A stretch of DNA of 64,000 nt from Solwaraspora sp. WMMD792. GTDB lineage: Bacteria > Actinomycetota > Actinomycetes > Mycobacteriales > Micromonosporaceae. Shown here in pieces: positions 17,205 to 37,045 of this stretch (the first letter of the stretch is position 1; each line of letters starts with the position of its first letter). The notes under the pieces were generated by a model. The model was not told where the DNA came from and did no database searches. It worked only from the letters and a program-made list of their open reading frames with translations. The translations under genes and the position numbers were made by a program. Location: contig NZ_JARUBH010000009.1 in NCBI RefSeq assembly GCF_029626105.1, forward strand, positions 3,720,001 through 3,784,000, given 5' to 3'.

Positions 17205-17222
17205 CCCGTCGAGGGTCGGCTG

Positions 17223-18806: not shown

Positions 18807-18822
18807 CGGACCTCCTCCGGTT

Positions 18823-20435: not shown

Positions 20436-23400
20436 GCTGGAAGGGTCACGGTGATCTGGTGCCGCCCGGAGTAGACCAGCGCGCGCGCCAGCCACCGGGC
20501 CAGGTCCGGAGCCACCGGCTCGGCCGCGCCCTGGGCGAGCGAACGGTCGAGGACGGCCGCCAGCCGCTCGCCGAGCACGTCGGACTCGGCCACCTGCGCC
20601 ACGTCGAGCTCGCGGACGTGGTCGACTCCGTCGATCGCGGTGACCGCCGCGTACAGGTCCGAACGGTGTGGCTTGCGGCCGAACGCCCAGCCGGTGCCGT
20701 CCGGTCCGCCGGTCAGCGGGTGCAGGAAGCGGTCCAGGGTCTGCACGACCCGCGCCTGGATCAGCCCGGCGGCCTCGGGTGTGGTGGCCACCACCGTGGC
20801 GGCGACGGTTACCTCGATCCATTCCGGTCCGGCGACCCAGAGGCCGACGGTCGGCGCACACCGGGCCCGCAGGTGCTGATCCACCTGCCGCAGCAGTCCC
20901 AGGCTGGGCACCGGTCGGGCGGCGTTGGAGACCGGGACCACGATGACCCCGACCCCGCCGACGTCGGCCTGCTGATGCTCGTCACCCGGCTGCTCGTCCG
21001 GATCGAGCCACAGGTTGAACGGGTCGAACCCGCTCGGCGGCACCGCCTGGGCCCGAGCCACCTCCGTCGAGGACTCGAACGCGAGGTCCACGTAGTCGTC
21101 GACCGTGACTGCCCGGTCGCGGTGGCGCAGCGCCTTCGGTCCCCGGTCCCGTACCCGCTCCAGCGGCTCCCAGCCCGCACCACCGGAAGCCGGCTCGTGG
21201 TTGGTCACCGAGTCCAGGTAGGGCACGGCAGATTTCAAGGTGGTGATGGTGCCCGCCGGTCGGTTGCCCTGCTCACCGCCGCCGGTGCGGTAGGTGATCC
21301 GCACGTTGTTCTGCCCAAGCGGCACCACCCGCCCCGCCTGGCCGTCGCCGAATCCGATCTCGCCGGTCGCGGCGTCGATGGTGTAGTGCCGGTCGCCCGG
21401 CCCGGAACGGTGGAAATCCGTCACCTCGTGCCAGCGTACCCAGATCTGCTCGGCGTCGTCGGTGACCGTGACCGCGCCCGGGCCGTCGGCCTCGACGAGC
21501 GCGGCCTCCTCCGGCGGTGACGGCCGCTGCGGCTCGCGCACGACGAGCCGCTGGCCGGCCAGTACCGGCGTCTGCGCGGTGGTCAGCCGTTGGCCGGCCT
21601 CGGCGACGCCGGACCCGAGGATCTCCTCGGCGATGGTGGTCGTCTGCGTCGCCCAGGTCGTGTTGGGAGAGACCCGGCGCAGGCGGGGCGGGATCGCGAA
21701 GCTGCCGCGCCGATGCCGCAGGCGCAGCCAGCACCGGTGCTGCCCGAAACGTTCCCCGGCGGTCAGGTCCGGCGGGCCGACGAAGCGGACCACACCACGG
21801 TCGCCCAGCGTCCCGGTCTCGTCGATCGCGGCCAATGGCCGCCAGCCGTCGACGCCGCTGTACTCCCACACCAGGTCGGCCCGGTCGGTCAGGTCGGCCC
21901 CGGCGAGCCGGTCGGCGGCCACCTCCTCCGGCGCCGGTGGCTCGACCTGCAGGTAGAGCGTGACCGGGCGGTTGCCGAACGGCTGGTCGAAGCCGAGGTA
22001 GAGGGCGGGGTCCCGGTGCGGATTGGGGACGAACGGGGTGACCTCCCACGGCTCGTCGCCGACACGGTGATGGGTGACGAGGCGGAAGTCGTTCTCGGTC
22101 ACGCAGGCCTGCGCCGGGACTGCGGCTGCCAGCCCGGCCCGGGACTGCCAGGACAACGTGGTGACGACCGGCGGCGCGAAGGTCGCGTCGACGAGTTCGT
22201 AGCCGCCGTCGTCGTCGTCGCGCGTGTAGTGGGCCGCGACGCCGTAGTCGCCGCCGATCAGCCGGACCCGGACCCAGTACTCCTCCACCCCGTTGACCTC
22301 GGTGGGGGCGAAACCGACCGGCGGGGTGAGCGTCACGGTGCCGCTGTCGGTGAAGGCGTACTCCGGATCGTCGACGGTCACCGTACGCCAGGCCGCGCCG
22401 TCCCAGGCCTCCCAGACGAGCCGTGGGTGACCCTCGGTGCGTACCGGCGGCACCGCGGGACCGGCCGGGTCGTCCGGGCCCGCCGGGTCGGTCGGCCCGT
22501 TGGTCAGCGTCACCTCGACGACGAGCTCCGCGCCCGGCCAGACCAGGTTCGCCGGACAGGCCAGGTAGCAGGTGTCGTTGAACCGGGGCTGCTCGCCGAA
22601 GGGACGGAAGTCCTTGGTCACGTCGATCGGGCTGGTGTTGCTGAAGGCGTGCGGCAGCGCCACCGGGTCCGGTGCCGTCTGCATCGATACGTCGATGGCG
22701 GTGATGACGGGCAGCTCCGAGTCATATCCCACGGTCACCGCCGCCAGCTGGGGCAGGGTGGCGTACGTCGCACCGTCGTCGACGATCTCGGCCCGCAGCC
22801 AGTGGCCGGACCGTCCCTGGAACAGCTCGGCCGGCCACTCGGCCGGCACCCGGAAGCTGATGTCGCCGTCGCGGGTCAGCGCCTGCGTACCGTCGCGCAG
22901 CCTGGCCGGAGTGTCGAACCCGGACGCCACCTGCGCCGTGCTGGACCGGCCCAGCGGCTGCCATTCGTCGCCGACCTTGTACGACCACACCACCTGCACC
23001 CTGGTGTCCGGGACGGCCGTTGCCGGTCGGGCGAGGGTGACGGTCAGTCGGACGACGGCACCGGGAAAAGCCGTCGCCGTCGGGACGCTGAGGTAGCACC
23101 GCCGGACCTGGCTGCTCTCGCCGAACGGGAAGACCCCCGCGACGTCAACCTGCGGGGTGCGCTGACCGGCCGCGACGGCGTCGAGGGCCAGCCCGGTAAC
23201 CGGGTGTGGCAGCGGCATGTCGAGCTGTGCGCGTAACCATCCGGCGGTGGTGCCGTTCACGTCGTACGCGGGCAGGGGCGGCAGGCCGGCGAGGGTCACC
23301 ACCAACGCGGTGTCCGCCAGCACCGTGTCGGCGTCGACCGGCTGCCACCGGGCGCCGTCCCAGTACGCCCAGGAAACCGGCCAACCGCCGAGCATCGCGA

Positions 23401-24001
23401 CGTCCGTGGTGGTCAACCGCACGGTGACGGTCTTGATCCCTTCGGTGGCGAGGACCGGGTCGCAGGCCAGGTAGAACCGGTGCGGCACCGGCTGGTCACC
23501 GGTGAAGGCAGCGAACGACTCGTCGCGCTGGCCGGTGCCCGCGGCGCTGCGGTCGGCGTAACTGTCCGTCAGCGCGTCGTCCACGAGCACGGCCTGCAGC
23601 TGGGCCGGGGTGACCACCAGGTCGGCCGCGGTCTCGAAGACGACCTCGTCGTCCTCGCCGTCGCGCGGGGTGGCCGCGACCTGGGTGCCGGCCGGGACCA
23701 CCGCTTCGGTGCGGCTGCCCGCGGCAAGGACGAAGGTGAGCGGTACGCGGGCCGGTCGCGGCGGCACCGGTCGGGTCCCGATCAGGTTGAGGAACGCGAG
23801 GTAGTCGCGTTCGGGCACCTGGTTCAGCCGCTGCACCACCAACTCGGCGTAGCGGGCGAAGATGCCGATCAGTGCCTGGCCGGCGTCGGGCCGTCCGTCG
23901 GCGCGCGGCCGCCAGTCGCTGTACCGGGTCGCCAGCGCGGTGGTCTGCGCGGCGAGCGCCGCCCGGTCGCGGGGATCGATGGGTGGGGGCTGTCCGGTCA
24001 T
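20432..24001 (-). CDS. Large baseplate assembly protein J-like (gp6/Afp11-like)
   Basis: 1189 aa, ATG at 24001 overlapping the gp25 stop. N-terminus DAGQALIGIFARYAELVVQR and LNQVPERDYLAFLNLIGTRP match the J/gp47 family start. The middle (about 200-800) is a long insertion of beta-sandwich-like repeats with many WEAWDGAAW/WEYSGVDGW motifs. The C-terminal 350 residues return to the J core (KALRHRDRAVTVDDYVDLAF). It forms the main baseplate wedge around the spike. Much larger than phage J proteins (about 300 aa) but of the usual size for actinobacterial eCIS. Confidence 0.9.
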   Translation of the reverse strand: MTGQPPPIDPRDRAALAAQTTALATRYSDWRPRADGRPDAGQALIGIFARYAELVVQRLNQVPERDYLAFLNLIGTRPVPPRPARVPLTFVLAAGSRTEAVVPAGTQVAATPRDGEDDEVVFETAADLVVTPAQLQAVLVDDALTDSYADRSAAGTGQRDESFAAFTGDQPVPHRFYLACDPVLATEGIKTVTVRLTTTDVAMLGGWPVSWAYWDGARWQPVDADTVLADTALVVTLAGLPPLPAYDVNGTTAGWLRAQLDMPLPHPVTGLALDAVAAGQRTPQVDVAGVFPFGESSQVRRCYLSVPTATAFPGAVVRLTVTLARPATAVPDTRVQVVWSYKVGDEWQPLGRSSTAQVASGFDTPARLRDGTQALTRDGDISFRVPAEWPAELFQGRSGHWLRAEIVDDGATYATLPQLAAVTVGYDSELPVITAIDVSMQTAPDPVALPHAFSNTSPIDVTKDFRPFGEQPRFNDTCYLACPANLVWPGAELVVEVTLTNGPTDPAGPDDPAGPAVPPVRTEGHPRLVWEAWDGAAWRTVTVDDPEYAFTDSGTVTLTPPVGFAPTEVNGVEEYWVRVRLIGGDYGVAAHYTRDDDDGGYELVDATFAPPVVTTLSWQSRAGLAAAVPAQACVTENDFRLVTHHRVGDEPWEVTPFVPNPHRDPALYLGFDQPFGNRPVTLYLQVEPPAPEEVAADRLAGADLTDRADLVWEYSGVDGWRPLAAIDETGTLGDRGVVRFVGPPDLTAGERFGQHRCWLRLRHRRGSFAIPPRLRRVSPNTTWATQTTTIAEEILGSGVAEAGQRLTTAQTPVLAGQRLVVREPQRPSPPEEAALVEADGPGAVTVTDDAEQIWVRWHEVTDFHRSGPGDRHYTIDAATGEIGFGDGQAGRVVPLGQNNVRITYRTGGGEQGNRPAGTITTLKSAVPYLDSVTNHEPASGGAGWEPLERVRDRGPKALRHRDRAVTVDDYVDLAFESSTEVARAQAVPPSGFDPFNLWLDPDEQPGDEHQQADVGGVGVIVVPVSNAARPVPSLGLLRQVDQHLRARCAPTVGLWVAGPEWIEVTVAATVVATTPEAAGLIQARVVQTLDRFLHPLTGGPDGTGWAFGRKPHRSDLYAAVTAIDGVDHVRELDVAQVAESDVLGERLAAVLDRSLAQGAAEPVAPDLARWLARALVYSGRHQITVTLPA

Positions 24002-24399
24002 GTCAGGTAGAAGGGGTAGACGAGGTTGAACCGGCTGTTGGTCGAGCGCACCTGGTAGTTGATCTCGATGAGCAGTCGGCGCCGGTCGGCGGGGTCAGGT
24101 GCGGCGTAGACGTCCAGCACGTCGATCCGGGGTTCCCAGCGGGCCAGTGCCTCGCGCACCGACCGGCTGACCCGACCGGCGGTGCCGATGTCGTTGACGT
24201 CGAACACGATGTCGTGGATGCCGCAGCCGAATTCCGGCCGCATCACCCGCTCGCCGGGTGCGGTGCCGAGGATGAGTCCGATCGACTGACGGATCAGTGC
24301 CTCGCCGTCGTCGCTGAGCCGGATGCCCTGCGCCGGCTCGTGGCCGACCGGGAACGCCCAGCCGGTGCCGAGAAAGCCGTGTTTCACCGTGCCGGTCAC
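23998..24399 (-). CDS. GPW/gp25-family baseplate wedge protein
   Basis: 133 aa, GTG at 24399. Pattern FLGTGWAFPVGHEP, DGEALIRQSIGLILGTAPGERVMRPEFGCGIHD is diagnostic for T4 gp25/GPW. gp25 joins wedges and nucleates sheath assembly on the baseplate. Linked by GTGA to the PAAR gene upstream and by ATGA to the J gene downstream. Equivalent to Afp9. Confidence 0.93.
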   Translation of the reverse strand: MTGTVKHGFLGTGWAFPVGHEPAQGIRLSDDGEALIRQSIGLILGTAPGERVMRPEFGCGIHDIVFDVNDIGTAGRVSRSVREALARWEPRIDVLDVYAAPDPADRRRLLIEINYQVRSTNSRFNLVYPFYLT

Positions 24400-24794
24400 C
24401 CGACCGTCACCGTGCCCGTGGCCAGCACCGTGCCGCTCGGCAGGTCCTGCGGATCGTTGCAGGTCGAGGCCAGGTCGCCGGACCTGATCGCCGGCTTACC
24501 GTTGATCTTCACGGTCGTACTGCCGCCTTCGAGGGTGGCCGTGTTCGACGGCTGCTTCTGGAACGACGTACCGGGCGCGGTGGGTACGTGCGCCGGGGTG
24601 TTCTCGGCGGTGGAGCCGGCCACCGCCGCCGGCTTGCCCATGATCTTGACATCGGCGCTCAGCCCGCCGTTGATGATCCCGGTGAAGGGATGCGGCAACG
24701 GTGTCGGTGTCGGCGCGGGTGCCCCGGGCACCATGACGATGTGGATGTCGGTCGCGTTGACCCGGTCACCCTGCTTCGCCGCGAACTGCCCCAT
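24396..24794 (-). CDS. PAAR-like spike-tip protein
   Basis: 132 aa, ATG at 24794. Repeating HxxP/IxGKPAA blocks (VKIMGKPAAVAGS, VKINGKPAIRSGD) and VNATDIHIVMVPG fit the PAAR-like cone that sharpens the spike (Afp10-like). No C-terminal effector extension: the protein ends shortly after GTVLATGTVTVG, so it carries no obvious toxin. Confidence 0.8.
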   Translation of the reverse strand: MGQFAAKQGDRVNATDIHIVMVPGAPAPTPTPLPHPFTGIINGGLSADVKIMGKPAAVAGSTAENTPAHVPTAPGTSFQKQPSNTATLEGGSTTVKINGKPAIRSGDLASTCNDPQDLPSGTVLATGTVTVG

Positions 24795-24811
24795 GAGAAC
24801 TCACCCCCCAT

Positions 24812-25456
24812 TCAGTTGATGTTGACTTGGCTGCCCTTGATGTCCAACTGCCCACTGGACTTCACCGCGAGCGCGGACTTCGCCTCGACCTTGACGTCGG
24901 CAGTGGAGGTGATCTCGACGCCGGCACCGGCCAGCCGCAGCCGCCCGCCGGCGGAGATCACCACGTCCGCGTCCGCGGTGACGGTGATCTGGTTGTCCTT
25001 CGTACTGATCACGATGCTGTTCCTACCGCTGCCGTCGACGATCTCGATGCGCTCGTCCTGCTTGGTGTCGACCAGGCGGATCACGTGCTTGCTGCGGGAG
25101 ACCATCACCCGTACGTCGTTGCGGCCGTCGGCGTTGGTGACCGGTGGGGCGTCCTTGCCGTTCCACAGCGCACCGACGACGTAGGGGACCTCCGGATTGC
25201 CGTGCTCGAAGGCGACCAGGACCTCGTCGCCGACCTCCGGTAGGAAGTAGCAGCCACGGCCAGGGCCGGCCATCGGCGAGGCCACCCGCGCCCAGTCGGT
25301 CTCGACATCGTCGGCCAGCCAGGGCAGCGCCACCTTGACCCTGGCCAGACCGTCCGGGTCGTTGTTGTTGGTGACGATGCCGATCACCACCCCGTGGTAC
25401 CGCCCGTCCGGGTGGGCCGGCTCGCCACCCGCCAACTGGTGGTAGACGTCCGTCAC
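24812..25456 (-). CDS. gpV/gp5-type baseplate spike protein
   Basis: 214 aa, GTG at 25456. OB-fold domain in the first 110 residues (YHGVVIGIVTNNNDPDGLAR, LPEVGDEVLVAFEHGNPEVP, VVGALWNGKDAPP), then a beta-helical needle of repeated ITV/DVVISAGG/VEITS segments. Trimeric central spike of the particle (Afp8 C-part). GTGA overlap with the hub gene upstream. Confidence 0.92.
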   Translation of the reverse strand: MTDVYHQLAGGEPAHPDGRYHGVVIGIVTNNNDPDGLARVKVALPWLADDVETDWARVASPMAGPGRGCYFLPEVGDEVLVAFEHGNPEVPYVVGALWNGKDAPPVTNADGRNDVRVMVSRSKHVIRLVDTKQDERIEIVDGSGRNSIVISTKDNQITVTADADVVISAGGRLRLAGAGVEITSTADVKVEAKSALAVKSSGQLDIKGSQVNIN

Positions 25457-26508
25457 GCCGCGTTCCTCCGTACTTCGAAGCTGGACCGGTAACCGGCCGC
25501 TGCGGTCACCGAGTGTTCGACGGAGACGACGTAGTACTCACCGCTGAAGGTCTCACCCGCTCCCTCGATCCGCACCACCTCGCCGGCGTGCAGGCGAGGC
25601 TGCCCGCCGCACTCGGCCTCGCCGGTGATGTAGCTCAACGCCAGGTCGTCGAACTGTCCCCGGGCAAGCTGGTCGGCACGGTCCTGGTTCGGCACCGGCA
25701 GGTCCACCCTGGTCGATCTGGTTCGGCCGAAGACCCGGCCGACCTCGCGGGGCCCGGTGACGGCACCCATCGCCGTGGACTCGGATCCGGAGCCGAACGT
25801 GGCGACGACGGCCTTCTTGGCGGCCACGTCCCAGCCCCGTACGGAGTGTTCGGCAGCCTGGCCCATGGTCCGCAGCCGGGGGGTGAACTGGGAGATGTCG
25901 TCGCCGACGCGCAGCTTCGCCGCCGGCACCCGGCCGTGCTGCGGCGGCCGGAAGGACAGCACCTTGTCCCGTACGTGAATCTCGTACCCGAGCAGCCCCG
26001 CCCTCCGCTGCAGGAACTCCAGATCGGTCTGGTTGTTCTGCAGTACGTAGTCGAGGTCGGTGCGGGTGTCGGGTACGTCGGCGCGCAGACCCGCTTCCTT
26101 GGCCAACTGCCGAGCGATGGTGCTGTCCCTGGTGCGGGTGAAGGTCCTGGTCCGCTGCCGGCGGGCCAACCGGTGTCGCAGGTCGTAGCCGCGGATGGTC
26201 AGCGTCGGCGGCCGGCCTTCCGCGAACGACGGCTCCAGGCTGGTGATCTCCCCGGTGATCGCCAGGTGCAGGTCCTTCACGTACCCGAGCGAGATCCGCA
26301 CCTCGGTGCCGACCGCGAACAGCGTGGAGTCCGACCAGGTGACCGCGAGCCGCTCCGCGTCCCAGTTCTTCAACGTCACGGTGAACATGCTCAGCGCGTT
26401 CAGGTCCTCCAGCACGGTCACCGACTCCACGTCCTTGTGGGCGTTCGGCGGCAGGCGCCGGCCACCACACCGGATCTCGAAGTCCGGCCCCGACTCGGCG
26501 GTTTCCAT
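25453..26508 (-). CDS. Phage late control gene D-like hub protein
   Basis: 351 aa, ATG at 26508. Segments YDLRHRLARRQRTRTF, STIARQLAKEAGLRADV and LQNNQTDLEFLQRRAGLLGYE are diagnostic for the gpD (gp27-like) hub. It binds the base of the spike. In Afp the hub and spike are one VgrG-like polypeptide (Afp8); here they are two coupled genes, as is common in actinobacterial systems. Confidence 0.92.
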   Translation of the reverse strand: METAESGPDFEIRCGGRRLPPNAHKDVESVTVLEDLNALSMFTVTLKNWDAERLAVTWSDSTLFAVGTEVRISLGYVKDLHLAITGEITSLEPSFAEGRPPTLTIRGYDLRHRLARRQRTRTFTRTRDSTIARQLAKEAGLRADVPDTRTDLDYVLQNNQTDLEFLQRRAGLLGYEIHVRDKVLSFRPPQHGRVPAAKLRVGDDISQFTPRLRTMGQAAEHSVRGWDVAAKKAVVATFGSGSESTAMGAVTGPREVGRVFGRTRSTRVDLPVPNQDRADQLARGQFDDLALSYITGEAECGGQPRLHAGEVVRIEGAGETFSGEYYVVSVEHSVTAAAGYRSSFEVRRNAA

Positions 26509-26523
26509 CGTCTGACTCTCCGC

Positions 26524-27306
26524 TCAGCTCAGCCGCGGGATGGTCAGGACCGTGCCGGGACGCAGGTCACGGGGGTTGACGATGCCGTTGGCCGAGGCGA
26601 TGTGCCGCCACAGCCGCGGATCCCGGTACTCGGCGGCGGCGATGCTGTGCAGCGTGTCGTTGCGCCGCACCACCCACGTCTTGTGCACGTCGGAGGAGTG
26701 CAGCTCACGCTCCTTGAGCTGCGCGTCGGTGAGCGACTCCACGAAGCTGCAGGAAACCGTCGCCCGGACCGGTGTGCCGTCGGGCAGGAACATGGTGAAC
26801 CGTTCGCTGATCTGGGTGAGCACGCCGGTGAAGATGTCGGCGAAGGCACCCCAGGACAGGGTGCACAGCGGAGGTCGGTGCAGTTCCTTGTCGAACTCGG
26901 CCAGCCGGGCCACCCGGCCGGTCAGCGCGGTGACGTCGGTCGCGTCGCCGGTCTGGAACGGATTGGGTGGCGTCACCAGCGAGGTGGCCCGGGCCCACAT
27001 GGACGCCTCCGCCCTCGACTCGTAGGTGTCGAAGAACAGCTCGAGCGACAACGTCGCGGGCTGCATGGCCGCGAACTCCTGCTGCAACCCGCTCCACGTC
27101 CAGGCACTGCCCTTGCCGGCGCTCTCGTGCGCGTGCCAGTTGACCGACCGCGACCGGGTGATCTCGTGCGGATTGAACAGCGCCTCGATCGGGCCGTTGC
27201 GATCGAAGTCCGTGCCGTCGTGGGCGATGGTCAGTTTCTGCAACCCACCGCCGCCGGGGCCGAACCCGAGCGCGGCGCTGGCCAGGCCCGCCTTGTTGAG
27301 ACTCAC
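26524..27306 (-). CDS. CIS tube-adaptor protein with C-terminal LysM (Afp7-like)
   Basis: 260 aa from the GTG at 27306 (VSLNKAGLASAALGFG), overlapping the stop of the 408-aa gene by 4 bp. Residues 20-190 match the CIS_tube/gp53-like fold (IEALFNPHEITRSRSVNW, LELFFDTYESRAE). Residues 205-258 are a LysM domain (KTWVVRRNDTLHSIAAAEYR, DLRPGTVLTIP). It connects tube and hub. The open frame runs on to 28089, but that stretch is an off-frame copy of the upstream proline-rich gene. Confidence 0.9.
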   Translation of the reverse strand: MSLNKAGLASAALGFGPGGGGLQKLTIAHDGTDFDRNGPIEALFNPHEITRSRSVNWHAHESAGKGSAWTWSGLQQEFAAMQPATLSLELFFDTYESRAEASMWARATSLVTPPNPFQTGDATDVTALTGRVARLAEFDKELHRPPLCTLSWGAFADIFTGVLTQISERFTMFLPDGTPVRATVSCSFVESLTDAQLKERELHSSDVHKTWVVRRNDTLHSIAAAEYRDPRLWRHIASANGIVNPRDLRPGTVLTIPRLS

Positions 27307-28529
27307 CGCCGCACCCCCCGACGCTCGGCCTCGACCGCCAGCCGGCGCATGATCCGGCCGTGCACCTGCTCGGTGACCTGCCCGACGTCGACCTGCGGGG
27401 CCGGCTGAGCAGGCGGCTGCGGCACACCACGGTCGGCCCGGGTCGGCCCGGACCCGAAACTGCCGGGCAGGGGGCCGGCGCCGTCGCGCGAGCCGACTCC
27501 ACGGCCGCCGAGGAAGGTCGCACCATGCCCGGTCGCACCATGCCCCGGGCCGCCGGAAGCCGCCCGCATCGGGCCCGCACCGGCCGGGTGCTGTGGTACG
27601 CCGGCCGCCGACGGTGCGGCCAGCGGAAGCTGCGGCGCCGGTCGGGCCGCCGGAGGCCGCGCCGTGACCACCTGGGACGGGGTCGCGGCGGGCGAGCGCT
27701 GCCCGCCGGTGGACGGCACACCGGCGGCGGGCCAGCCGGCCTGATCTGCCGTGGGTGGCGTGCGGAAGACCAGGTGGGGTCCGCTGGCCATCCGGCCCGG
27801 GTCGCCGATCAGCCCGGCCCAGTCGGCAGGGCCGGCTGCCGTCGGAGCCGTAGCCGTGGGAGTCCACGGCCCGGCGTCGGCGGCCGGGGCACCCGTCGGC
27901 ACCGCCGGCCCGGTGGCCGACGGTCCGATGGACGCCGGCCGTTTGGCCTGGTCGGCCGGCGATGGCGCGGAACCCGGTTCGGCAGACACGGCCGCCTTGC
28001 GTTGGATGGTCAGCGGCCGGCCGGCGGCCGGCCGGGGCGGCACCGGCTGCGTGGAGCGGCCGGCGACCCCGGGACCGGTGGCGGCCCACACCGGGCTCGA
28101 CTCGGCAACGGGGCGGGCCGGGCGCGCCGGCACCACCGGGCCGGACGCGGCGGCCGGCGATCCGCCGGCCGGGTCGGCGGCCGAACGGCGGGCGGACGCG
28201 ACCGGCCTACGGTGCGCCGGGGCTGGTGGCCCGGCGCTCGCCGGGTCGGCGGCCGGGCTGGTCGGCAGAGCAGCGGCCGGGGCAGCGTGTCCGGCGGACG
28301 GCGGCGGTGCGGGTCGCGCGTACACGATGGGTGTCGTCGGCCCGGTGTGCTGCTGCGTGGCCAGGTTGACGTAGCGCGAAGCGACCTCGGCCAGCGGCAG
28401 ACCCGCCGGCATGGTGTGGTGGCGGGTGAGCGCGGACCGGGCCTGGCCCAGGTCGATCAGGCCGGGTCGCCGGGCCGGCCGGGACAGCCGGTGGACCAGC
28501 GCCGGGTCGAAGGTCGTGTCGTCGTTCAT
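27303..28529 (-). CDS. Proline/alanine-rich eCIS protein of unknown function (possible linker, ruler or cargo)
   Basis: 408 aa from the ATG at 28529. Only the two ends look folded: residues 1-65 (FDPALVHRLSRPARRPGLID, LAEVASRYVNLATQQHTGP) and the last 30 (VDVGQVTEQVHGRIMRRLAV). Everything between is a low-complexity Pro/Ala/Gly/Ser segment. No TM or signal peptide. It sits between tube 2 and the LysM adaptor. The conserved-looking C-terminal helix suggests docking to the particle. No tape-measure protein is recognised elsewhere in the cluster, so a role as spacer is possible but unproven. Confidence 0.75.
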   Translation of the reverse strand: MNDDTTFDPALVHRLSRPARRPGLIDLGQARSALTRHHTMPAGLPLAEVASRYVNLATQQHTGPTTPIVYARPAPPPSAGHAAPAAALPTSPAADPASAGPPAPAHRRPVASARRSAADPAGGSPAAASGPVVPARPARPVAESSPVWAATGPGVAGRSTQPVPPRPAAGRPLTIQRKAAVSAEPGSAPSPADQAKRPASIGPSATGPAVPTGAPAADAGPWTPTATAPTAAGPADWAGLIGDPGRMASGPHLVFRTPPTADQAGWPAAGVPSTGGQRSPAATPSQVVTARPPAARPAPQLPLAAPSAAGVPQHPAGAGPMRAASGGPGHGATGHGATFLGGRGVGSRDGAGPLPGSFGSGPTRADRGVPQPPAQPAPQVDVGQVTEQVHGRIMRRLAVEAERRGVRR

Positions 28530-28542
28530 CCGAGGCTCCCGG

Positions 28543-29085
28543 TCAGCCGACCATGCCGGCCACGCCGTGCGCCAGCGCGGCGGCCTGGCCCAGCAGCGGC
28601 TTGGTCAGACCCTCGTGCACCAGCTCCAGCGACTCGAAGCCGACATCGTCGCCGCTCGCGCTGAACGTCGGGCCGGTCCAGCGCACCGGCAACGCGTTGC
28701 GGAAGTTCCACCACATCACCGGGATCTGCCGCCGGTCGAGCAGCACGATCGTGCCGCTGCGGCGCTGGATGACGCCCCGGGTGGTGTTGTCGTACCAGCC
28801 CCACAGACCGCTGAGCGGGCTCAGCCCCTGCCGCAGCACCAGGTGCGCGGGAGTGGCCGCGCCGGGCAGCTGGTGAACGAAGCCGTTGACCCCGCCCTCC
28901 CGGTAGGACTCCATCTCGATCTGACTTTCCAGGCCGCTGACCTCGTTGAACCCGGCCAGCAGCAGGCCCTCGATCTCCACCGCGAAGTTGAAGGTCTGGA
29001 ACGGGTCCGGCAGCCGCAGGCCGGTCCAGTTGCCCACGGCGGCAGGTGCCCAGCTGAGCCCGAGCGGAATCCCGGTCGACATCAT
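28543..29085 (-). CDS. Second tail-tube protein (T4 gp19 family, Afp5-like)
   Basis: 180 aa; ATG at 29085 (a second in-frame ATG at 29082) overlaps the DUF6760 stop. PFQTFNFAVEIEGLLLAGFNEVSGLESQIE and YREGGVNGFVHQLPG are the gp19 tube signature. Relative to tube 1 it has a longer N-terminus and a C-terminal tail, as expected for the baseplate-proximal tube ring. Confidence 0.9.
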   Translation of the reverse strand: MMSTGIPLGLSWAPAAVGNWTGLRLPDPFQTFNFAVEIEGLLLAGFNEVSGLESQIEMESYREGGVNGFVHQLPGAATPAHLVLRQGLSPLSGLWGWYDNTTRGVIQRRSGTIVLLDRRQIPVMWWNFRNALPVRWTGPTFSASGDDVGFESLELVHEGLTKPLLGQAAALAHGVAGMVG

Positions 29086-29255
29086 CTCCGTGCCCCTCCC
29101 TGTTCATTGAGTCGCTCGTTGATCCGCGCGACCTCCGCGACCCAGCGCTGCCGTTCCCGGTGGTCCAGCTGCATGATCTCGTGATAAGGCCAGTGAAAGT
29201 GATAGGCCAGGTACGCTACTTCCTCGTGCAGCCGGTCCGGGGAGTAGCGCGTCAT
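29082..29255 (-). CDS. DUF6760 small eCIS protein
   Basis: 57 aa: MTRYSPDRLHEEVAYLAYHF followed by HWPYHEIMQLDHRERQRWV. A small conserved protein recurring in actinobacterial eCIS loci next to the tube genes. Starts at the ATGA overlap with the chaperone-like gene and ends at the ATGA overlap with tube 2. Function not known; position between a putative chaperone and a tube protein suggests assembly help. Confidence 0.78.
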   Translation of the reverse strand: MTRYSPDRLHEEVAYLAYHFHWPYHEIMQLDHRERQRWVAEVARINERLNEQGGARR

Positions 29256-29638
29256 CCCCCCAGGCTGGGCGGCTCCACTTCGAACGATCCACTGCAGTGT
29301 GGGCAGTCGACCTGCAGCCGGGCGTGCCCGTTGAGGTTGATCCGCTGGTAGAAGTCCTGCAGGTAGGCGAGATCGGCGGAGTAGAGGTTCTCCACCACGT
29401 TGGTGTTGATGTACTCCAGTCCGCCCAGCCTGGTGATCACCCGGGCCAGCAGGATGATCACCAGGTAGCCCGGGTTCGACCGTACCCGGGGATCCTTGAT
29501 CGGCTCGATCTCGTCGAGCGCGGTGGCCATCCGCATGGCTCCCTCGCGGTGCACCGTGCCGTCCGGCGCGACCAGTCCGTGCGGCAGGGTGAACGGGAAC
29601 TCGGTACGGCGGGCCTCGACGACGCCGGTCAGCTCCAC
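29252..29638 (-). CDS. T4 gp26-like baseplate hub assembly chaperone-type protein
   Basis: 128 aa, GTG at 29638, overlapping the tube 1 stop by about 10 bp. EFPFTLPHGLVAPDGTVHRE...DEIEPIKDPRVRSNPGYLVIILLARVITRLGG follows the pattern of the T4-family hub assembly chaperone. A single CPHC pair near the C-terminus hints at half of a zinc knuckle. Together with DUF6760 it likely escorts tube or hub proteins; assigned by pattern only. Confidence 0.65.
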   Translation of the reverse strand: MELTGVVEARRTEFPFTLPHGLVAPDGTVHREGAMRMATALDEIEPIKDPRVRSNPGYLVIILLARVITRLGGLEYINTNVVENLYSADLAYLQDFYQRINLNGHARLQVDCPHCSGSFEVEPPSLGG

Positions 29639-30066
29639 TGGTCGACCTCGATGCGTTCACAGGCGAGGATGAGTTGCTCCACGGCGATCTCGTCGCTGGT
29701 CGCGCTGAGGCTGGGTCCGCTCCACGACTTGGGCCAGCAGTCGAACAGGTTCCAGGTCACCTTCGGATTGCCCTGCTGGTCGAGCAGGGTGATCGACACG
29801 TTGTGCCGTTCCACGGTGCCCTTCATCACCTTCTGCCGCCACTCCCACAGCTTGCTGTCGCTGGTGAGGCCACGGCTGAGCGTGATGTCACCGTAGCTGT
29901 TCAGCCCGGGAATCTTGCGCGGCGCCAGGTTCCGGTCCGTACCCTCCCGGTACTCGGCGACGTTCTGGCTGGTCTCCAGCCCGGAAGCCTCCCGGAATCC
30001 GGCCCGGGTGATGCCGTCGAGCTCCACCGCGAAGTTGTACCCGAAGTATGGGTCGAGTCTGTCCAC
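29629..30066 (-). CDS. Main tail-tube protein (T4 gp19 family, Afp1-like)
   Basis: 145 aa, GTG at 30066 with GAGG upstream. DPYFGYNFAVELDGITRAGFREASGLE and YREGTDRNLAPRKIPGLNSY give a clear gp19 match. It should polymerise into the inner tube through which cargo travels. A 45-bp gap separates it from sheath 2. Confidence 0.93.
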   Translation of the reverse strand: MDRLDPYFGYNFAVELDGITRAGFREASGLETSQNVAEYREGTDRNLAPRKIPGLNSYGDITLSRGLTSDSKLWEWRQKVMKGTVERHNVSITLLDQQGNPKVTWNLFDCWPKSWSGPSLSATSDEIAVEQLILACERIEVDQWS

Positions 30067-30111
30067 AACCGCACCTCACTGTTTGTCCGCACCGACTGTT
30101 GTCCGCACCGG

Positions 30112-31272
30112 TCACGCCACGCCGACCGTCACCCCGCTCGCGCCGTGGATGACGCGGACGGTGATGAACTCGGCCGGCGCGGTCGGTGCCACTCCGATGT
30201 GTGTCACTACCACCCCGGCCTCGATGACCGCGGGTGGGTTCGTCTCGTGGTCGCACTTGACGTAGAACGCCTCGGCGGGCGTGCGGCCCTGCAGGGCACC
30301 GCGCTGGAACAGCCCGTCGAGGTACGCGGTGAGTTCCCGCATGATCCGCACCCACAGCCGGACGTCGTTGGGCTCGTGCACCAGGCCGGTCATGAACCGT
30401 TCGATCCACCGGCCGATCGTGCTCACCAGGCGGCGGGCGGTCACGTCCTGCCAGGCCGGGTCGGCGCCGAGGGTACGCGCGCCCCAGACCCGTACGCCCC
30501 GGCCGGGCAACGCCCGCAGGCAGTTGACCCGCTGCCCGTACAGCGTGCCGACCTCGGCAGCGGTGAGCTGCACCTGCAGGTCGACAATGCCCTCGACCAC
30601 GGTGTTGGCCGGTGCCTTGTGGACGCCGACCCGTTGGTCGGCGGTGGAGTACACGCCGGCCACGTGCCCGGACGGCGGCAGGTGACGCAGCCGCCCGTCG
30701 GCGCCGGACGCGCCCAACCAGGGGTAGTACAGCGCGCCGAACGCACCGTCGGCCCCGGTCAGCGCCGCGCACTGCTCGGCGACCTTCGCCGGGTCGACGG
30801 CCGGGACGCCGTCGAGCAGCGCGAACCGGTCACCGTGCTGCCGGCAGTGCCGCAGCATCGCCTGCTGTGCCTGCACGACCGGGGCGAGATCCTTGTCGAC
30901 CGGCCACGGCGCGGCGGCCACGATGCCGGGGGCACAAATCAGGTCGACATCGTCCAGGTCGTCCAGCGTCGCCAGTGCTTCCTGCACCTCCTCGACGGGC
31001 GTCAGCCCTCTGGGCACCCGGACGACGTGACACAGCGTCCCGCCGTTGTCGAAGAACCCCCGGACCGCGTCGGCCAGGAAGCCGTCCGGGGCGTCGCCGG
31101 AGGTCGCACCACCGAAGACCGCCTCGAACTGCGGCCACAGGGTCAGCCGCTGCGGGGTGTACGGGCCGGTGGCGGCCCGGCCGAGGAAGGCGGGCACCCC
31201 GGTGAGCTGGGTCGGTGGCGGCGGCGGGAACACGTCCTGCCGGTGCACACCGGGTGTCAGCGGGTAGGTCAC
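30112..31272 (-). CDS. Contractile tail sheath protein (second copy)
   Basis: 386 aa from the GTG at 31272 (VTYPLTPGVHRQDV). Sheath signatures: FLGRAATGPYTPQRL, FFDNGGTLCHVVRV, YYPWLGASGADGRLRHLPPSGHVAGVYSTADQRVGVHKAPAN and the C-terminal RGVRVWGARTL / AFYVKCDHETNPP. It lacks the acidic insertion of sheath 1. Two sheaths per particle are usual in Afp-type eCIS. Confidence 0.92.
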   Translation of the reverse strand: MTYPLTPGVHRQDVFPPPPPTQLTGVPAFLGRAATGPYTPQRLTLWPQFEAVFGGATSGDAPDGFLADAVRGFFDNGGTLCHVVRVPRGLTPVEEVQEALATLDDLDDVDLICAPGIVAAAPWPVDKDLAPVVQAQQAMLRHCRQHGDRFALLDGVPAVDPAKVAEQCAALTGADGAFGALYYPWLGASGADGRLRHLPPSGHVAGVYSTADQRVGVHKAPANTVVEGIVDLQVQLTAAEVGTLYGQRVNCLRALPGRGVRVWGARTLGADPAWQDVTARRLVSTIGRWIERFMTGLVHEPNDVRLWVRIMRELTAYLDGLFQRGALQGRTPAEAFYVKCDHETNPPAVIEAGVVVTHIGVAPTAPAEFITVRVIHGASGVTVGVA

Positions 31273-31291
31273 GGTTTCGTCCGGGCGTCCG

Positions 31292-32572
31292 CTACTGGAC
31301 CCCGCCGGCCCACTGGCTGATCCGGAACACCACGAACTCGGCCGGGCGTACCATCGCCACCCCGATCTCGACCACCAGTTGGCCGGCGTCGCGGACCGCG
31401 GCCGGGTTGACGGTCTCGTCACAGCGTACGTAGAACGCCTGCTCCGGGGTGTTGCCCAGCAGCGCACCGGAGGCCCACACAGTGGTCAGGAAGGCACTGA
31501 CGTTACGCCGGATCTTCGACCACAGCTCCGGCGCGTTCGGCTCGAAGACCACCCACTGGGTGCCTTCGTCGATCGATTCGCGCAGGAAGTTGAACAGCCG
31601 CCGGGAGGAGATGTAGCGCCACTCAGCCTGATCCTTGCCGGCGAGGGTACGGGCACCCCAGATCGTGATGTTGCCGCCGAACTTGCGGATCACGTTGATG
31701 TCGTCCGGGTTGAGCCCGGCCTGCTGCTGCTTGCTGACCAACGCCTCGACGCCCAGCGCACCCCGAATCACCTCGTTGGCCGGCGCTTTGTGCACACCCC
31801 GCTCGGTGTCCACGCGGGCGTACACCCCGGCGATGTGCCCGCTCGGCGGCTGGTACACCTTGTTGCCGTCGGCGTCGGTGACGCCCACGTCGATCCACGG
31901 GTAGTAGATCGCGCCGTAGCTGCTGTCCCGGACGTCGCCCTGGATCGCTGCCTTGGTCAACGTGGTGGTCTGCCGACCGTCGAGGATCGCGAACCGGTCC
32001 TGCAGGTACTGGTTCTCGCAGTGGTCGAGCAGCGCGGTCTGCACCGCGTCGCTCACCGCGCCGGGGATCGCGACCAGGGCGATCTCGTCGATCGCGGCGA
32101 AGGTCGCCAACGCGTCGATCAGGTCGTCGTCCGAGGATCCGGCGGCGGCAGCGGGGGCAGAGGCGGCATCGTCGGCGTCGTCATCGTCGGCGTCGGCGGG
32201 TGCGGGTGCGGGTGCGGGTGCGGAGGGGGCGGCGACGCGGGTGATCCAGCAGCGGCCGCCACCGTTGTTGAAGAAGCCGTACACGGCGTGGGCGAGGGTG
32301 CGGTTGCCGGGCTGGATGTCGCCGAAGAGGTTCTTGAACGTCTCCCAGCCGTCGACGAGCTGAGCCTCGCCGGCAGGCGCCACCACGTGGAAGTCGGCCG
32401 GCACGGGGGTGCCGTCCGCCGTCACACCGGCACGACCGGGCAGCAGCGGCATTGTGACGTCGTCGGCGACGACACCGATGAAGCCGGCGGTGCTGGTCCC
32501 CACACCGGCGATCGGCTTGATCGCCGAGGGGACCTCCTCGACGTACACGCCCGGCGCTAGATACTGCGGCAT
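31292..32572 (-). CDS. Contractile tail sheath protein (main copy) with acidic low-complexity insertion
   Basis: 426 aa from the ATG at 32572, nine bases after a GGGGGAG site. Begins MPQYLAPGVYVEEVPSAIKP, typical of sheath N-termini. Core: FFNNGGGRCWITRV, YYPWIDVGVTDADGNKVYQP, PSGHIAGVYARVDTERGVHK. Between CWITRV and LIDALATFAAID (about residues 120-155) sits a Pro-Ala then poly-Asp/Ala stretch, encoded by GCGGGT-type hexamer repeats at 32190-32225, most likely a surface loop on the contracting domain. The frame is open further upstream but is shadow. Confidence 0.93.
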   Translation of the reverse strand: MPQYLAPGVYVEEVPSAIKPIAGVGTSTAGFIGVVADDVTMPLLPGRAGVTADGTPVPADFHVVAPAGEAQLVDGWETFKNLFGDIQPGNRTLAHAVYGFFNNGGGRCWITRVAAPSAPAPAPAPADADDDDADDAASAPAAAAGSSDDDLIDALATFAAIDEIALVAIPGAVSDAVQTALLDHCENQYLQDRFAILDGRQTTTLTKAAIQGDVRDSSYGAIYYPWIDVGVTDADGNKVYQPPSGHIAGVYARVDTERGVHKAPANEVIRGALGVEALVSKQQQAGLNPDDINVIRKFGGNITIWGARTLAGKDQAEWRYISSRRLFNFLRESIDEGTQWVVFEPNAPELWSKIRRNVSAFLTTVWASGALLGNTPEQAFYVRCDETVNPAAVRDAGQLVVEIGVAMVRPAEFVVFRISQWAGGVQ

Positions 32573-32591
32573 CTGTGGGTACTCCCCCTCG

Positions 32592-33185
32592 TCAGGACTC
32601 GTGGCCCACGCCCTGGCCGACACGAATGACCGTCCCGGTCACCTCGGGCCCGACCGGCATGGATTCGAACACGTCGACGCTGAGCGTGACGCTGTAGTGC
32701 AGAACCGCTTTGGGTCGACCGCCCATGGCCTGCCAGAACTCGCCGATGCCCTGCAGTTGGCTCTCGGCGGTGACCATCGCGCGCAGCGGTGGCTGCTGCC
32801 CGGCCAGGTCACCGCGCAGGTAGTCGGCGGGAATCTCCCGGTGGCGCAGCAGCACCCGCAGTACGTCGCCGAGCAGCCGGTGCTCGTCCTGCGCCGGGTT
32901 GGGCGCGCTGTCGTTGGGCCAGGCGGTGACCAGGTAGGAGCAGTCGACCCGGGCCGGCACCCGCCGACGGGTGATCATCCCGGACTCCTGCCGGGTGTTC
33001 TCCCACTGGTTGGTCCGCAGCTCGTGGTTCTCCCGTACGTCGTAGAGGAAGAACGCGATCGCGGGCAGGGTGACGCCGGAGGGCGGAAACTGGTCGTCCG
33101 GTGTGGCGAAGCTGACGGTGATGCCGGGCAGCGCCAGCTCGCCCTGCACGAGGGCGGCGAGCGACGCGTCCAGATCATGAAACAC
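32592..33185 (-). CDS. DUF4255 tail-terminator/cap protein (Afp16/Pvc16-like)
   Basis: 197 aa from the GTG at 33185 (VFHDLDASLAALVQGELALP), with AGGG just upstream. DDQFPPSGVTLPAIAFFLYDVRENHELRTNQW is the DUF4255 signature. Cap proteins end tube and sheath growth. It is the first gene of the structural operon; the inverted-repeat cluster at 33327-33363 lies 140-180 bp upstream. Confidence 0.9.
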   Translation of the reverse strand: MFHDLDASLAALVQGELALPGITVSFATPDDQFPPSGVTLPAIAFFLYDVRENHELRTNQWENTRQESGMITRRRVPARVDCSYLVTAWPNDSAPNPAQDEHRLLGDVLRVLLRHREIPADYLRGDLAGQQPPLRAMVTAESQLQGIGEFWQAMGGRPKAVLHYSVTLSVDVFESMPVGPEVTGTVIRVGQGVGHES

Positions 33186-33326
33186 TGCCCTGTCCCGCCC
33201 CCAATTGCGTCCTTCGCGCCGGTCGACAGGTCTACCGGACGGGCGTCCCACGAGCGTCTGCGCCGGCGTCTACCGGACCGCCTCGGCGGATCCTGGGCGA
33301 CGAACCAAAGGGCTTGACGTGGCAAG

Positions 33327-33363
33327 TCACATGTCAATGTGATGCGCGCCACATAGGCATCAC
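33327..33363. promoter_or_regulatory. Cluster of overlapping inverted repeats upstream of the eCIS structural operon
   Basis: Three nested inverted repeats share this 37-bp AT-richer stretch: TCACAT-N4-ATGTGA (33327-33342), ATGTG-N8-CACAT (33337-33354) and GTGATGC-N11-GCATCAC (33339-33363). It lies between the frameshifted small gene and the cap gene. A regulator-binding site or a switchable hairpin controlling the structural genes is a reasonable inference. The whole gap 33186-33382 contains no gene. Confidence 0.5.
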
Positions 33364-33382: not shown

Positions 33383-33618
33383 TCACGAGATGAACAGCCC
33401 CCTGAAGATCTCTCCTGCCCTGGAGACCTCCCCCGGCGCGTACCCCCGTCTGGCGCGCAGGTTGTTGCGGACCCGGACCGCCATGTCCGCCCACTCGTTG
33501 GGCTGGTAGGTATGCCGGTAGGTGTGTAGCCACGCCTGTTGCGCTCCAGCAGTTCATCAACGAGGTCGTCCTCCGCGAAGAGCGCTTCGAGTTCCGGATG
33601 CGTTTCGACCATATGCAC
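33383..33618 (-). pseudogene. Small eCIS-linked gene split by a one-base frameshift
   Basis: A GTG at 33618 with GGAGGG six bases upstream opens a frame reading VHMVETHPELEALFAEDDLVDELLE. Near 33540 coding sense switches to the next frame, giving RQQAWLHTYRHTYQPNEWAD then MAVRVRNNLRARRGYAPGEV to a TGA at 33383. Adding a single C at the GCGCAACAG stretch restores one open frame of about 78 aa. So the gene is a recent pseudogene, a sequencing error, or uses frameshifting. It starts 21 bp after the ATPase stop on the same strand. Family not recognised. Confidence 0.7.
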
Positions 33619-33639: not shown

Positions 33640-36600
33640 TCAGAAGCGCCGATCAGCGGCGACCTGCCCGTTCGGCGGGTCGGCGCCGAATTCCCCCGCC
33701 GAGAGGATCTTGCCCATCTTCTGATACTCACGCCGGGTGGCGTGGAGCAGATGCGCCATGGTCACCTTGCCCTCGTCGGCGGCGGCGAGGAAGGCGCTGG
33801 CGAGGGCGATGTTTCGGATGTTTCCGCCGGGCAGATCGACCTGCCGGGCCAGCAGGTCCAGATCGACTGTCGGGTCCAGCGGCGCCTGCTCGGGCCAGAC
33901 CTGCGTCCAGATGCGGCGACGGTCCGCCACCTCGGGGACCGGGAAGTCGACGGTGGCGTGCAGCCGGCGGGTGAACGCGTCATCGAGGTTCTTGCGCAGG
34001 TTCGTCGCCAGGATGACCATGCCCTCGTGCTGCTCCATCCGCTGCAGCAGGTAGCTGACCTCCAGATTGGCGTACCGGTCGTGTGCGTCACGGACCTGGG
34101 AACGTTTCCCGAACATCGCGTCGGCCTCGTCGAAGAACAGCACCGCGTTGCTGGTGGCCGCCTCTTCGAAGATCCGGGACAGGTTCTTCTCCGTCTCGCC
34201 GATGTACTTGCTCACCACCGTCGACAGGTCGATCCGGTAGAGGTCCAGGCCGAGTTCGTGGGCCAGCACGTCGGCGGCCATCGTCTTGCCGGTGCCCGAC
34301 GGGCCGGCGAACAGCACCGCCAGGCCGCGCCCGTTGGCCAGCTTGCGCTCGAACCCCCAGGACTCGTAGACCAGGGCCCGGTAACGGGCCTGGTCGGCGA
34401 TCTCCCGCAACTGCTGCATCCGGTCGGCGGGCAGCACGATGTCCGACCAGCCGTAGTGCGGCGTGATCCGCTGCGCCAGGTCGGTCAGCTTACGGTTGGA
34501 CTGCAGGCGGCACGCCGCGTACAGGTCGTCCTGGGTGATCCCGGGCGCGTCGGGCGTCCGGGCGTACGCCAGGTTGCGGGCCGTCGCCGCGGCGTCGCGG
34601 ATCTGGCCACCGGTGAGTCGGAACTTGCCGGCGACGGCGGCCGGGTCCAGGTCACCCTGGTCCCCCCCGACCAGCGCGTCGTCCCAGATGCGCAGCCGCT
34701 CGGCGTAGCCGGGCGCGGGGAACTCCAGCCGGACGAAGGTCAGGCCCGCCGGCAGGTCGACCGGCTCCCAGGTGGTGCCACCGGCCAGGAACGACGGAGC
34801 AGGGTACGCCGCCAGGGCGGACATCAGCAGCGACAGCCGTGGCCGGGCCTGCTCGACCAGCAGGGAGTCGGCGTTCACCCAGCACATGACCGCGCCCTGC
34901 AGCCTGGCTTCCCGCTCGACCAGGCCAACCAGGGTCGCGAACTCCTCGGCCGGGCGGTCGGCCAGCAGATCGGCGGACACCACCAGCAGCGGCGCGCTCC
35001 AGTGACGGGCGCACGCCGCCGCGAGGCTGCGCCGGCCGACGCCGTACGGCCCCTGGCAGTAGACCAACAGGTCGTCGCCAGCGTGCTCCCGCAGCCGGGC
35101 CAGGGTCGCCGCGAACTCCGCCGGAAAGTGCAGGTCGTCGAGGGTCCCGGTCGGTGCGACGATCCGGGCGTACGGCTGAAGCTGCTCGGCGAGGTCGTCG
35201 TCTTCCAGCAGGAAGCCGACGACCCGTGGGTCCAACCGGAGGTTGTTACCCAGCAGTGAGTGCACCGGTGCGGTCGGGTCCTCTGTCGACGTGACGAGCC
35301 GATGGCGGAGCAACGGTGCCGACGGCGCGAACCGGGCTCGCGCGGCCATCCGTGACTGACGGTCGGCGCACAACATGGTGAGAACGAGATCGACCGTCGG
35401 CAGCCGGCGGGTCAGATCGTCGTGCAGGTAGCCGTACAGCCGCTCGTAGCTCCGGTCGATCTCGGGCGCGAGGCAGGCCACGATCACTTCGACGTCGAAC
35501 GGGGCGAGGTCGAACATTCCGGCCAGTGCCACCAGCCGCAGACCCACACCGTCCCGCAGGCTCTGTGCCACCCGCTCGCCGATCTCGTGGGACAACCTGT
35601 CCAGCTCGGCGGCGGTCCCCGGGTCGTCGTCGCCCGGCGGCGCCCAGTCGGGTACACCGTCCAGCAACGCGTCGGCTTCGGCCTCGGAAACATAGAAGGT
35701 GGAAAGCTCGCCGCCGGGCCGGGGTCGGGCCTTCCGGACCCGACTGACCTGCCTACCCAGCACCAGGTCGAGCCGGGCGAGTTCGGCCAGCAGGTGTTCC
35801 GTCGAGTTGGCGTACCCCGAACCGTCCATGGATCCCAGCACCTCGTCCCGGTTGTCCCCGACCGGTAGATCATCGCCGCCGGAAGGGGCCGGCACGATCG
35901 TTGATACGCCGACCGTCAGCACCGATCGGCCGTTCCCCGGTCGGATGTCCGCCGTCCGGTCCGCCCGGATCTGCTCGTAGAGGACCGTGGTGTCCACCGA
36001 CGGGCGCACCCCGAACTCCTGGTCCACCACCGACGTACACAGATCGTACTGGCGAAGCGCGGCGATCCGGTCACCGGCGGCGTAGTGCAGCCGCATCAGC
36101 TGGCGGTGGGTCCGCTCGCGCGCCGCGTCGTGGCGCAGCACGGTCTGACCGAGGTCCACGCCCCTGGCGTAGAGACCACGGGCCTCGCAGTAGCCCATGA
36201 GCTGTTCCTGCATCAACAGGTAGGTGTCGCGTAGCCGGTCCCGTTCGGCACCGCACCAGTCGTGGTACCAGGTGGCGAGAAGATCTCCACGGTAGAGCTT
36301 CAGCGCATGCTCCACCGCCTGCGCCTGGTCGTCGGAGAGCGCTTCGCCGGGCACGTCGCGGACCGCCGCGTAGCTCTGCTCGAACGCGTCCACATCCAAC
36401 CAGCAGGACGCATCCGGGTTGATCCGTACCCAGCCGGGGTCGATGACGACGAGGTCGCTCGCCGGCCGCCGGTCGTTCGGCTGGTCCTGCATGCTCGTGT
36501 TGAGCCGCCACAGTGCCTGGCGCAGGTACTTGCGGGCAACGCCGGGCTCGGCCCCCGGCCACAGCAGTTCCGAGATGGATTCGCGGGCGTGGGTCCGGTC

Positions 36601-36708
36601 CCGGTGGACGAGCAGGTAGCCGAACAGCTCGAGGGCCTTGCCGGGCGGAGCGTTCAGTGGCTGGCCACGTCGGAGGATCGAGACGTCATCGAAGAGTCTC
36701 ACCTGCAC
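33640..36708 (-). CDS. eCIS AAA+ ATPase (Afp15-like) fused to an N-terminal SARP-type winged-helix + BTAD module
   Basis: 1022 aa from the GTG at 36708 (VQVRLFDDVSILRRG; AAGGAGA upstream). Residues 1-95 look like an OmpR-type winged helix (GKALELFGYLLVHRDRTHAR, ESISELLWPGAEPGVARKYL). Residues 100-245 are a bacterial transcriptional activator domain (HALKLYRGDLLATWYHDWCG, LRQYDLCTSVVDQEFGVRPS). From about 300 the usual eCIS ATPase follows: a winged-helix region, a first AAA module with degenerate Walker A (QGPYGVGRRS, near 554), and an active second AAA module with AGPSGTGKT (near 800), Walker B VLFFDEADAMFG (near 860) and a sensor at ATNLRKNLDDAF. The fusion suggests the assembly ATPase also acts in regulation or sensing. 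Confidence 0.88.
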   Translation of the reverse strand: MQVRLFDDVSILRRGQPLNAPPGKALELFGYLLVHRDRTHARESISELLWPGAEPGVARKYLRQALWRLNTSMQDQPNDRRPASDLVVIDPGWVRINPDASCWLDVDAFEQSYAAVRDVPGEALSDDQAQAVEHALKLYRGDLLATWYHDWCGAERDRLRDTYLLMQEQLMGYCEARGLYARGVDLGQTVLRHDAARERTHRQLMRLHYAAGDRIAALRQYDLCTSVVDQEFGVRPSVDTTVLYEQIRADRTADIRPGNGRSVLTVGVSTIVPAPSGGDDLPVGDNRDEVLGSMDGSGYANSTEHLLAELARLDLVLGRQVSRVRKARPRPGGELSTFYVSEAEADALLDGVPDWAPPGDDDPGTAAELDRLSHEIGERVAQSLRDGVGLRLVALAGMFDLAPFDVEVIVACLAPEIDRSYERLYGYLHDDLTRRLPTVDLVLTMLCADRQSRMAARARFAPSAPLLRHRLVTSTEDPTAPVHSLLGNNLRLDPRVVGFLLEDDDLAEQLQPYARIVAPTGTLDDLHFPAEFAATLARLREHAGDDLLVYCQGPYGVGRRSLAAACARHWSAPLLVVSADLLADRPAEEFATLVGLVEREARLQGAVMCWVNADSLLVEQARPRLSLLMSALAAYPAPSFLAGGTTWEPVDLPAGLTFVRLEFPAPGYAERLRIWDDALVGGDQGDLDPAAVAGKFRLTGGQIRDAAATARNLAYARTPDAPGITQDDLYAACRLQSNRKLTDLAQRITPHYGWSDIVLPADRMQQLREIADQARYRALVYESWGFERKLANGRGLAVLFAGPSGTGKTMAADVLAHELGLDLYRIDLSTVVSKYIGETEKNLSRIFEEAATSNAVLFFDEADAMFGKRSQVRDAHDRYANLEVSYLLQRMEQHEGMVILATNLRKNLDDAFTRRLHATVDFPVPEVADRRRIWTQVWPEQAPLDPTVDLDLLARQVDLPGGNIRNIALASAFLAAADEGKVTMAHLLHATRREYQKMGKILSAGEFGADPPNGQVAADRRF

Positions 36709-37045
36709 GACGCGTCTCCTTCGTACCGCAACGGCCCGCCCGGCCGGCCACCGCCGGCACGGATGCGGGCGCCGCTCGCCGCCTCGTCGCCGCACGTCGT
36801 CCCCGGCTCCGGTGCCAATCGGACATACGGGCGCCACGCTACTCCACGGTGGTTCGACTGGTCACCGTGACTGTCGTCGACCGGCCACCGTCACCCGCGA
36901 CAACGGGCGCCCCGCCACCCGCGTGGCCCGCAGATGAGACAGAACAGGTTCGGTCCGGCATGGCGACATCTGCCGACGTACATCGATGCCATATGCCATG
37001 CGGCTCCCTGCCGTCCCCTGCCCAACCAACCTCCGGAGGGCAACG
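36709..37045. other. Gene-free upstream region of the eCIS ATPase
   Basis: About 340 bp between the ATPase start and the CBM2 remnant. No coding sequence is supported on either strand. It should hold the promoter for the ATPase gene and any promoter of the former CBM2 gene; I see no clear -35/-10 pair. Confidence 0.4.

Follow-up and report, generated by a model that had tools for sequence, protein, structure and literature searches.

A SARP-like front fused to the eCIS ATPase in three Solwaraspora genomes, with a split counterpart in Frankiaceae

The eCIS ATPases of the Pvc15/Afp15 type are among the closest described relatives of the protein reported here. In Pvc15, the AAA module D1 is degenerate and D2 is active, and the protein binds and loads cargo and is required for the association of cargo with the particle (PMC11495950). 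The N domain of Pvc15 resembles the winged helices of transcription factors, with no function known for it (PMC11495950). A second line of work concerns regulators. The BTAD was listed among the eCIS-associated domains, with a suggested role in regulation (Geller 2021, PMC8213781), and a review of 2026 repeats both the association and the suggestion (PMC12961389).

We analyzed a stretch of 64,000 nucleotides from Solwaraspora sp. WMMD792, hereafter the window, in which a protein of the first kind is joined to one of the second. The features are as follows.

16926..33251, minus strand: eCIS structural genes (Pvc16, two sheaths, tubes, LysM/CIS_tube, hub, spike, PAAR, gp25, J, P2_I, fibre-type and coiled-coil genes)
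33383..33617, minus strand: decayed remnant of a cargo-type eCIS_core gene (PF13699, former DUF4157), between the ATPase and Pvc16
33640..36708, minus strand: fused gene, SARP-like front plus eCIS ATPase, 1022 aa, with a GTG at 36708 and the stop ending at 33640
33643..34488, minus strand: predicted active AAA module D2 (GPSGTGKT, LFFDEAD, sensor N903, Arg fingers R914/R915), by sequence and alignments
34489..35169, minus strand: degenerate AAA module D1, Walker A GVGRRS (Lys to Arg), lacking an acidic Walker B
35170..35820, minus strand: winged-helix variant PF22977, the ATPase N domain, residues 297-513 (Pfam E 1.9e-53)
35827..35829, minus strand: candidate internal start ATG, codon 294, which would yield a free ATPase of 729 aa
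35830..35964, minus strand: linker, residues 249-293, of which 255-291 are predicted to be disordered; dN/dS about 1 or above
35839..35844, minus strand: internal Shine-Dalgarno sequence GAGGTG, nine bases before the ATG (-11.7 kcal/mol)
35965..36399, minus strand: BTAD, TPR-like helices, residues 104-248 (Pfam PF03704, E 1.7e-19, over the cut-off)
36400..36708, minus strand: OmpR-type winged helix, residues 1-103, from the AF2 model and its fold match to AfsR and EmbR
36716..36722, minus strand: Shine-Dalgarno sequence GAAGGAG of the GTG start, 7 bases before it (-9.6 kcal/mol)

The GAAGGAG before the GTG is kept across all three species with the fusion, and its pairing energy is equal in the three genomes. 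A longer reading from an upstream start at 36837 was rejected, since an indel of one nucleotide breaks the frame between species there, which marks the stretch as non-coding. The gene cluster around the fused gene reads as a complete-looking eCIS. Two other genomes, G005 and G006, also carry the fused gene, and at the position of the remnant they have a full-length eCIS_core gene of about 618 aa. At another locus (L070, 12105-13577), a 490-aa protein without a Pfam match adjoins an eCIS ATPase and contains a RSVGNTAALRLA motif as found in eCIS_core cargo proteins.

The first-pass annotation had pointed to the inverted repeat at 33327-33363 as a site for the fused protein. This palindrome (TTGAC-N13-GTCAA) lies upstream of Pvc16 rather than of the ATPase, and it is lost in G005; the proposal was therefore given up. 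No conserved direct repeats of 11 or 22 bases of the SARP type were found upstream of the fused gene, and a scan for sigma-70 promoters found none. On the minus strand, 36709-36900 is conserved and holds a perfect GTCACGGTGAC palindrome some 150 bases ahead of the start codon, a possible promoter or operator.

The same annotation had read the first 245 or so residues as a winged helix followed by a BTAD. In Pfam the BTAD passed the cut-off, while Trans_reg_C stayed below it (E 0.12) and gave a weak hint, so that the profile search bore out one half of the reading. The structure prediction supplied the other half. An AF2 model of the front, built on 36 sequences, had a pLDDT of 86 (mostly above 90 in the BTAD) and showed a winged helix of the OmpR type and a helical BTAD; residues 255-291 came out as disordered. 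The whole SARP domain of AfsR matched this model with Z 21.1 over 239 aligned residues, and EmbR matched from residue 1 with Z 19.2; the two matches span residues 1-252. Unrelated TPR proteins ranked after them in the fold search, at Z of about 12. As modelled, residues 1-254 combine a winged helix of the OmpR type with a BTAD and have the AfsR fold.

We mapped the contact positions of AfsR, taken from its cryo-EM structure (PMC10936776), onto the front through a sequence alignment (offset 24). About half of the DNA- and RNAP-contacting residues are kept. AfsR W74, P79, R87 and the base-reading R92 correspond to W50, P55, R63 and R68, and the RNAP-contacting R173 is retained as R158. Conservative changes are found at Q48 (K24), T88 (Q64) and D71 (E47). 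The phosphate contacts R94, K95 and S91 are lost (N70, T71 and W67), as are the activation residues E76 (G52) and R59 (H35). The pattern is compatible with DNA binding. Among the three species, the winged helix has a dN/dS of 0.12-0.20 and is more strongly conserved than the BTAD.

Residues 294-1022 correspond in sequence to a standard eCIS ATPase of the Pvc15/Afp15 type, in agreement with the earlier reading of this part as a contractile-injection ATPase with one degenerate and one active AAA module. Besides the motifs given above, Pfam AAA (PF00004) matched at residues 798-923 (E 4.7e-30), and neither AAA_16 nor NB-ARC passed the Pfam cut-off on the fused protein. The full-length structure model was used for the linker and the ATPase only; the front was poorly modelled in it, with few fronts in the alignment. 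In comparisons of the three species, dN/dS is 0.08-0.47 in the front and in the ATPase, so purifying selection acts on both; on the linker it does not (1.1-2.5, over few sites).

An internal start near residue 280 had also been named in the first-pass annotation. A strong sequence candidate was found at codon 294. The pairing of GAGGTG before ATG294 with the 16S tail is the strongest among the start-like codons of the gene and exceeds that of the true start in all three genomes. We took 263 internal ATGs from the window and two related loci as a background; only three of them had sites at or below -11.5 kcal/mol, and all three are the codon-294 site in the three genomes. In each fused gene, the disordered linker ends at ATG294, which is where unfused ATPases begin. 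Nucleotide conservation around this ATG was not significantly raised (Fisher p 0.22). Because of the strong internal Shine-Dalgarno sequence and the position of unfused ATPase starts, we think that a free ATPase is also made. It is rather probable, judged from these signals, that the old ATPase start persists and that two proteins are produced, a regulator-ATPase of 1022 aa and a free ATPase of 729 aa.

The fusion has a narrow distribution. Homologues of the ATPase were found in 127 of the 355 genomes of the family, and only three of the 127 have the fusion, with a match over residues 1-1022. These three all belong to the window's genus, and in two of them the assembly is a single contig. In the other homologues of the family, the match begins at about residue 290-300 or later. 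No further fusion was found in a sample of the order (250 genomes) or of the class (395 genomes), and none was among the best 80 matches, from many phyla, listed in a scan of one genome per species. When the front alone was searched against 346 genomes of the phylum, none of the loci examined had another front on an eCIS ATPase, and among plasmids no record covered 80% of the fused-protein query. N termini were checked with the BTAD profile at 16 larger loci and about 110 loci of the scan, and by match range at the others. The fusion is thus not generally present in eCIS ATPases, as judged from the searches of the family, order and class and from the best 80 scan matches listed. The earlier statement that Pvc15-type ATPases lack such a front stood insofar as the fusion is absent from nearly all others examined; it needs the addition that a winged-helix-like N domain (PF22977) is already ordinary in them, being common to the unfused eCIS ATPases too.

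Of the window's genus, seven genomes were covered, and four of them have an eCIS sheath. In the fourth of these, G004, the ATPase region has been lost. The structural genes at its eCIS locus (L269, 4557-9345 and beyond) are 94-98% identical to those of the window. An insertion of about 4.1 kb with a reverse-transcriptase-like gene separates the sheath from Pvc16, and mobile-element-like genes stand where the ATPase would be, as in a decaying cluster. In other Actinomycetota, no eCIS genes could be recognized within about 10 kb of the closest standalone fronts (L224-L228), and the front family is therefore not specific to eCIS. In an eCIS of Anaerolineae (L157, 1417-2370), a standalone BTAD gene closely related to the front in the window lies right before the sheath gene.

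A split form of the same protein pair was found in Frankiaceae. In Frankia nepalensis (L092, 2652-3590), a separate BTAD gene has a stop that overlaps the GTG of the ATPase gene by four bases (GTGA). Its structural genes are on another contig, and the main sheath and tube proteins are 53-76% identical to those of the window. A second member of the family, G784, has a matching gene pair with a four-base ATGA overlap; the pair follows directly on the structural genes and is itself followed by an eCIS_core gene. The front beside the ATPase is hence not confined to one genus, as Frankiaceae encode it as a separate overlapping gene. In the ATPase tree, Frankia is the sister of the window's genus (97*), and the two fall within unfused ATPases of other phyla; no BTAD gene was seen at the loci of the nearest ATPase outgroups. 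In the BTAD tree, the fronts of the window's genus and of the two Frankiaceae are sisters (98*), and the next relatives are standalone proteins. Since both trees place the split-gene Frankiaceae as sisters, the fusion derives from a coupled pair. The simplest history is that the pair was acquired or formed in a common ancestor and became fused in the window's genus. Frankiaceae have the pair at the cluster's 3' end and the window has it at the 5' end, which means that the two genes moved together. As relatives keep the two proteins as overlapping neighbor genes, the SARP-like front and the ATPase probably act jointly.

The split BTAD proteins (L092 and L258) have a C-terminal amphipathic helix (EIAALHERLGEIQASLDILLLAIGHG) that is absent from the fused protein; it may do the docking that a fusion makes needless. 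In gut Clostridia (L154 and L163), too, a BTAD protein is encoded immediately upstream of the eCIS ATPase. Their fronts are distant, and this pairing may have an independent origin. At one of these loci (L163, 637-5160), the reading frame of the ATPase is overlapped by that of a 1508-aa protein of the STAND type, whose C-terminal part holds a winged helix and a BTAD.

Could the fusion be an artefact of assembly or annotation, in which a frameshift error joins two genes? The two proteins do have separate frames in the sister loci. However, the identical open frame occurs in three independent genomes, with 89-92% identity among the fused genes and two of the genomes in single contigs. We consider an artefact hardly credible, and the fusion is a true gene fusion. 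The fusion, the split sister state, the SARP fold and the purifying selection are demonstrated. On the history preferred here, an ancestral eCIS had a small gene for a SARP-like regulator immediately ahead of its Pvc15-type ATPase gene, with translational coupling between them, and the two reading frames became one in the window's genus. Control of the cluster by DNA binding, tied to the ATPase, is the likeliest function of the front, and that of a cargo or scaffold adaptor comes next. The first-pass annotation had offered both readings, as one protein that promotes assembly and controls expression of the cluster and as a scaffold formed by the TPR-like BTAD. Under the former, the front would bind DNA and RNA polymerase like AfsR and activate the eCIS cluster or its own promoter. 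The state of the ATPase ring, idle or busy loading cargo, would set the number of fronts free to activate, comparable to the control of AfsR by its NOD module. Weighing all of this, we give such a gated activator an even chance. The AfsR fold, the partly kept contacts, the selection on the winged helix, the split counterparts, the congruent trees, the Shine-Dalgarno sequence of ATG294 and the listing of the BTAD by Geller 2021 argue for it. The lost AfsR contacts, the lack of conserved direct repeats and the p of 0.22 around ATG294 argue against it. So does the place of the regulator gene in Frankiaceae, because the 3' end of the structural operon is an odd site for the activator of that operon.

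It is also possible, with a clearly smaller probability, that the front is a protein-binding adaptor, whose TPR-like BTAD brings cargo, a chaperone or baseplate parts to the ATPase ring, DNA binding being lost or irrelevant. Cargo binding and loading by Pvc15 (PMC11495950), the eCIS_core gene next to the ATPase gene in G005, G006 and G784, and the many peptide-binding TPR domains in the Foldseek list are in line with it, as is the loss of several DNA and RNAP contacts of AfsR; the four-base gene overlap within a structural operon suggests a stoichiometric complex. An adaptor, however, would need neither a winged helix more conserved than the BTAD nor the base-reading Arg, and both are present. 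The front might even be the passive leftover of a chance frame fusion, an ordinary tethered regulator, while assembly would be wholly the work of the free ATPase from codon 294. The disordered, fast-evolving linker and the strong internal start fit this account, but three diverged species have retained the fusion, and purifying selection acts on D1, D2 and the front alike, which makes the account improbable. For the preferred reading, in which the front is a regulator tied to the ATPase, a further step can be imagined. One gene with two starts could give mixed hexamers with a variable number of DNA-binding fronts, so that the cargo-loading state of the ring is read out as eCIS transcription. 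We mention this step as speculation and consider it rather unlikely.

The fusion bears on how the expression of an eCIS is tied to particle assembly and cargo loading, and it offers a concrete protein, with residues and start codons, for testing the cooperation of a SARP-like protein with the ATPase. Compared with Pvc15 and Afp15, the fused protein has the same PF22977 N domain, degenerate D1 and active D2 and is likewise encoded within an eCIS cluster, but known members start at the N domain, whereas here 293 further residues with the SARP fold precede it. With the SARP family (the SARP domain of AfsR, and EmbR), it shares the full-length winged helix and BTAD (Z 21 and 19), the base-reading Arg and several contacts, although some DNA and RNAP contacts of AfsR differ. 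Large SARPs such as AfsR (SARP-NOD-TPR) also combine, in a single chain, a SARP front with a regulatory ATPase behind it. In contrast to them, the ATPase here is a Pvc15-type double AAA unfoldase, not STAND/NOD, and there is no TPR tail. The BTAD genes of Geller 2021 likewise encode a BTAD protein at eCIS loci; the main text of that study has the regulators beside the operon and mentions no fusion or overlap with the ATPase gene. In the literature, we found no SARP attached to an eCIS ATPase and no mention of a BTAD-ATPase fusion or overlap. What is new is the addition of a SARP-like front to an eCIS ATPase, rather than a winged helix as such. Two known eCIS-linked proteins stand in one chain, with a possible second start, and two loci of Frankiaceae have them as an overlapping pair of separate genes.
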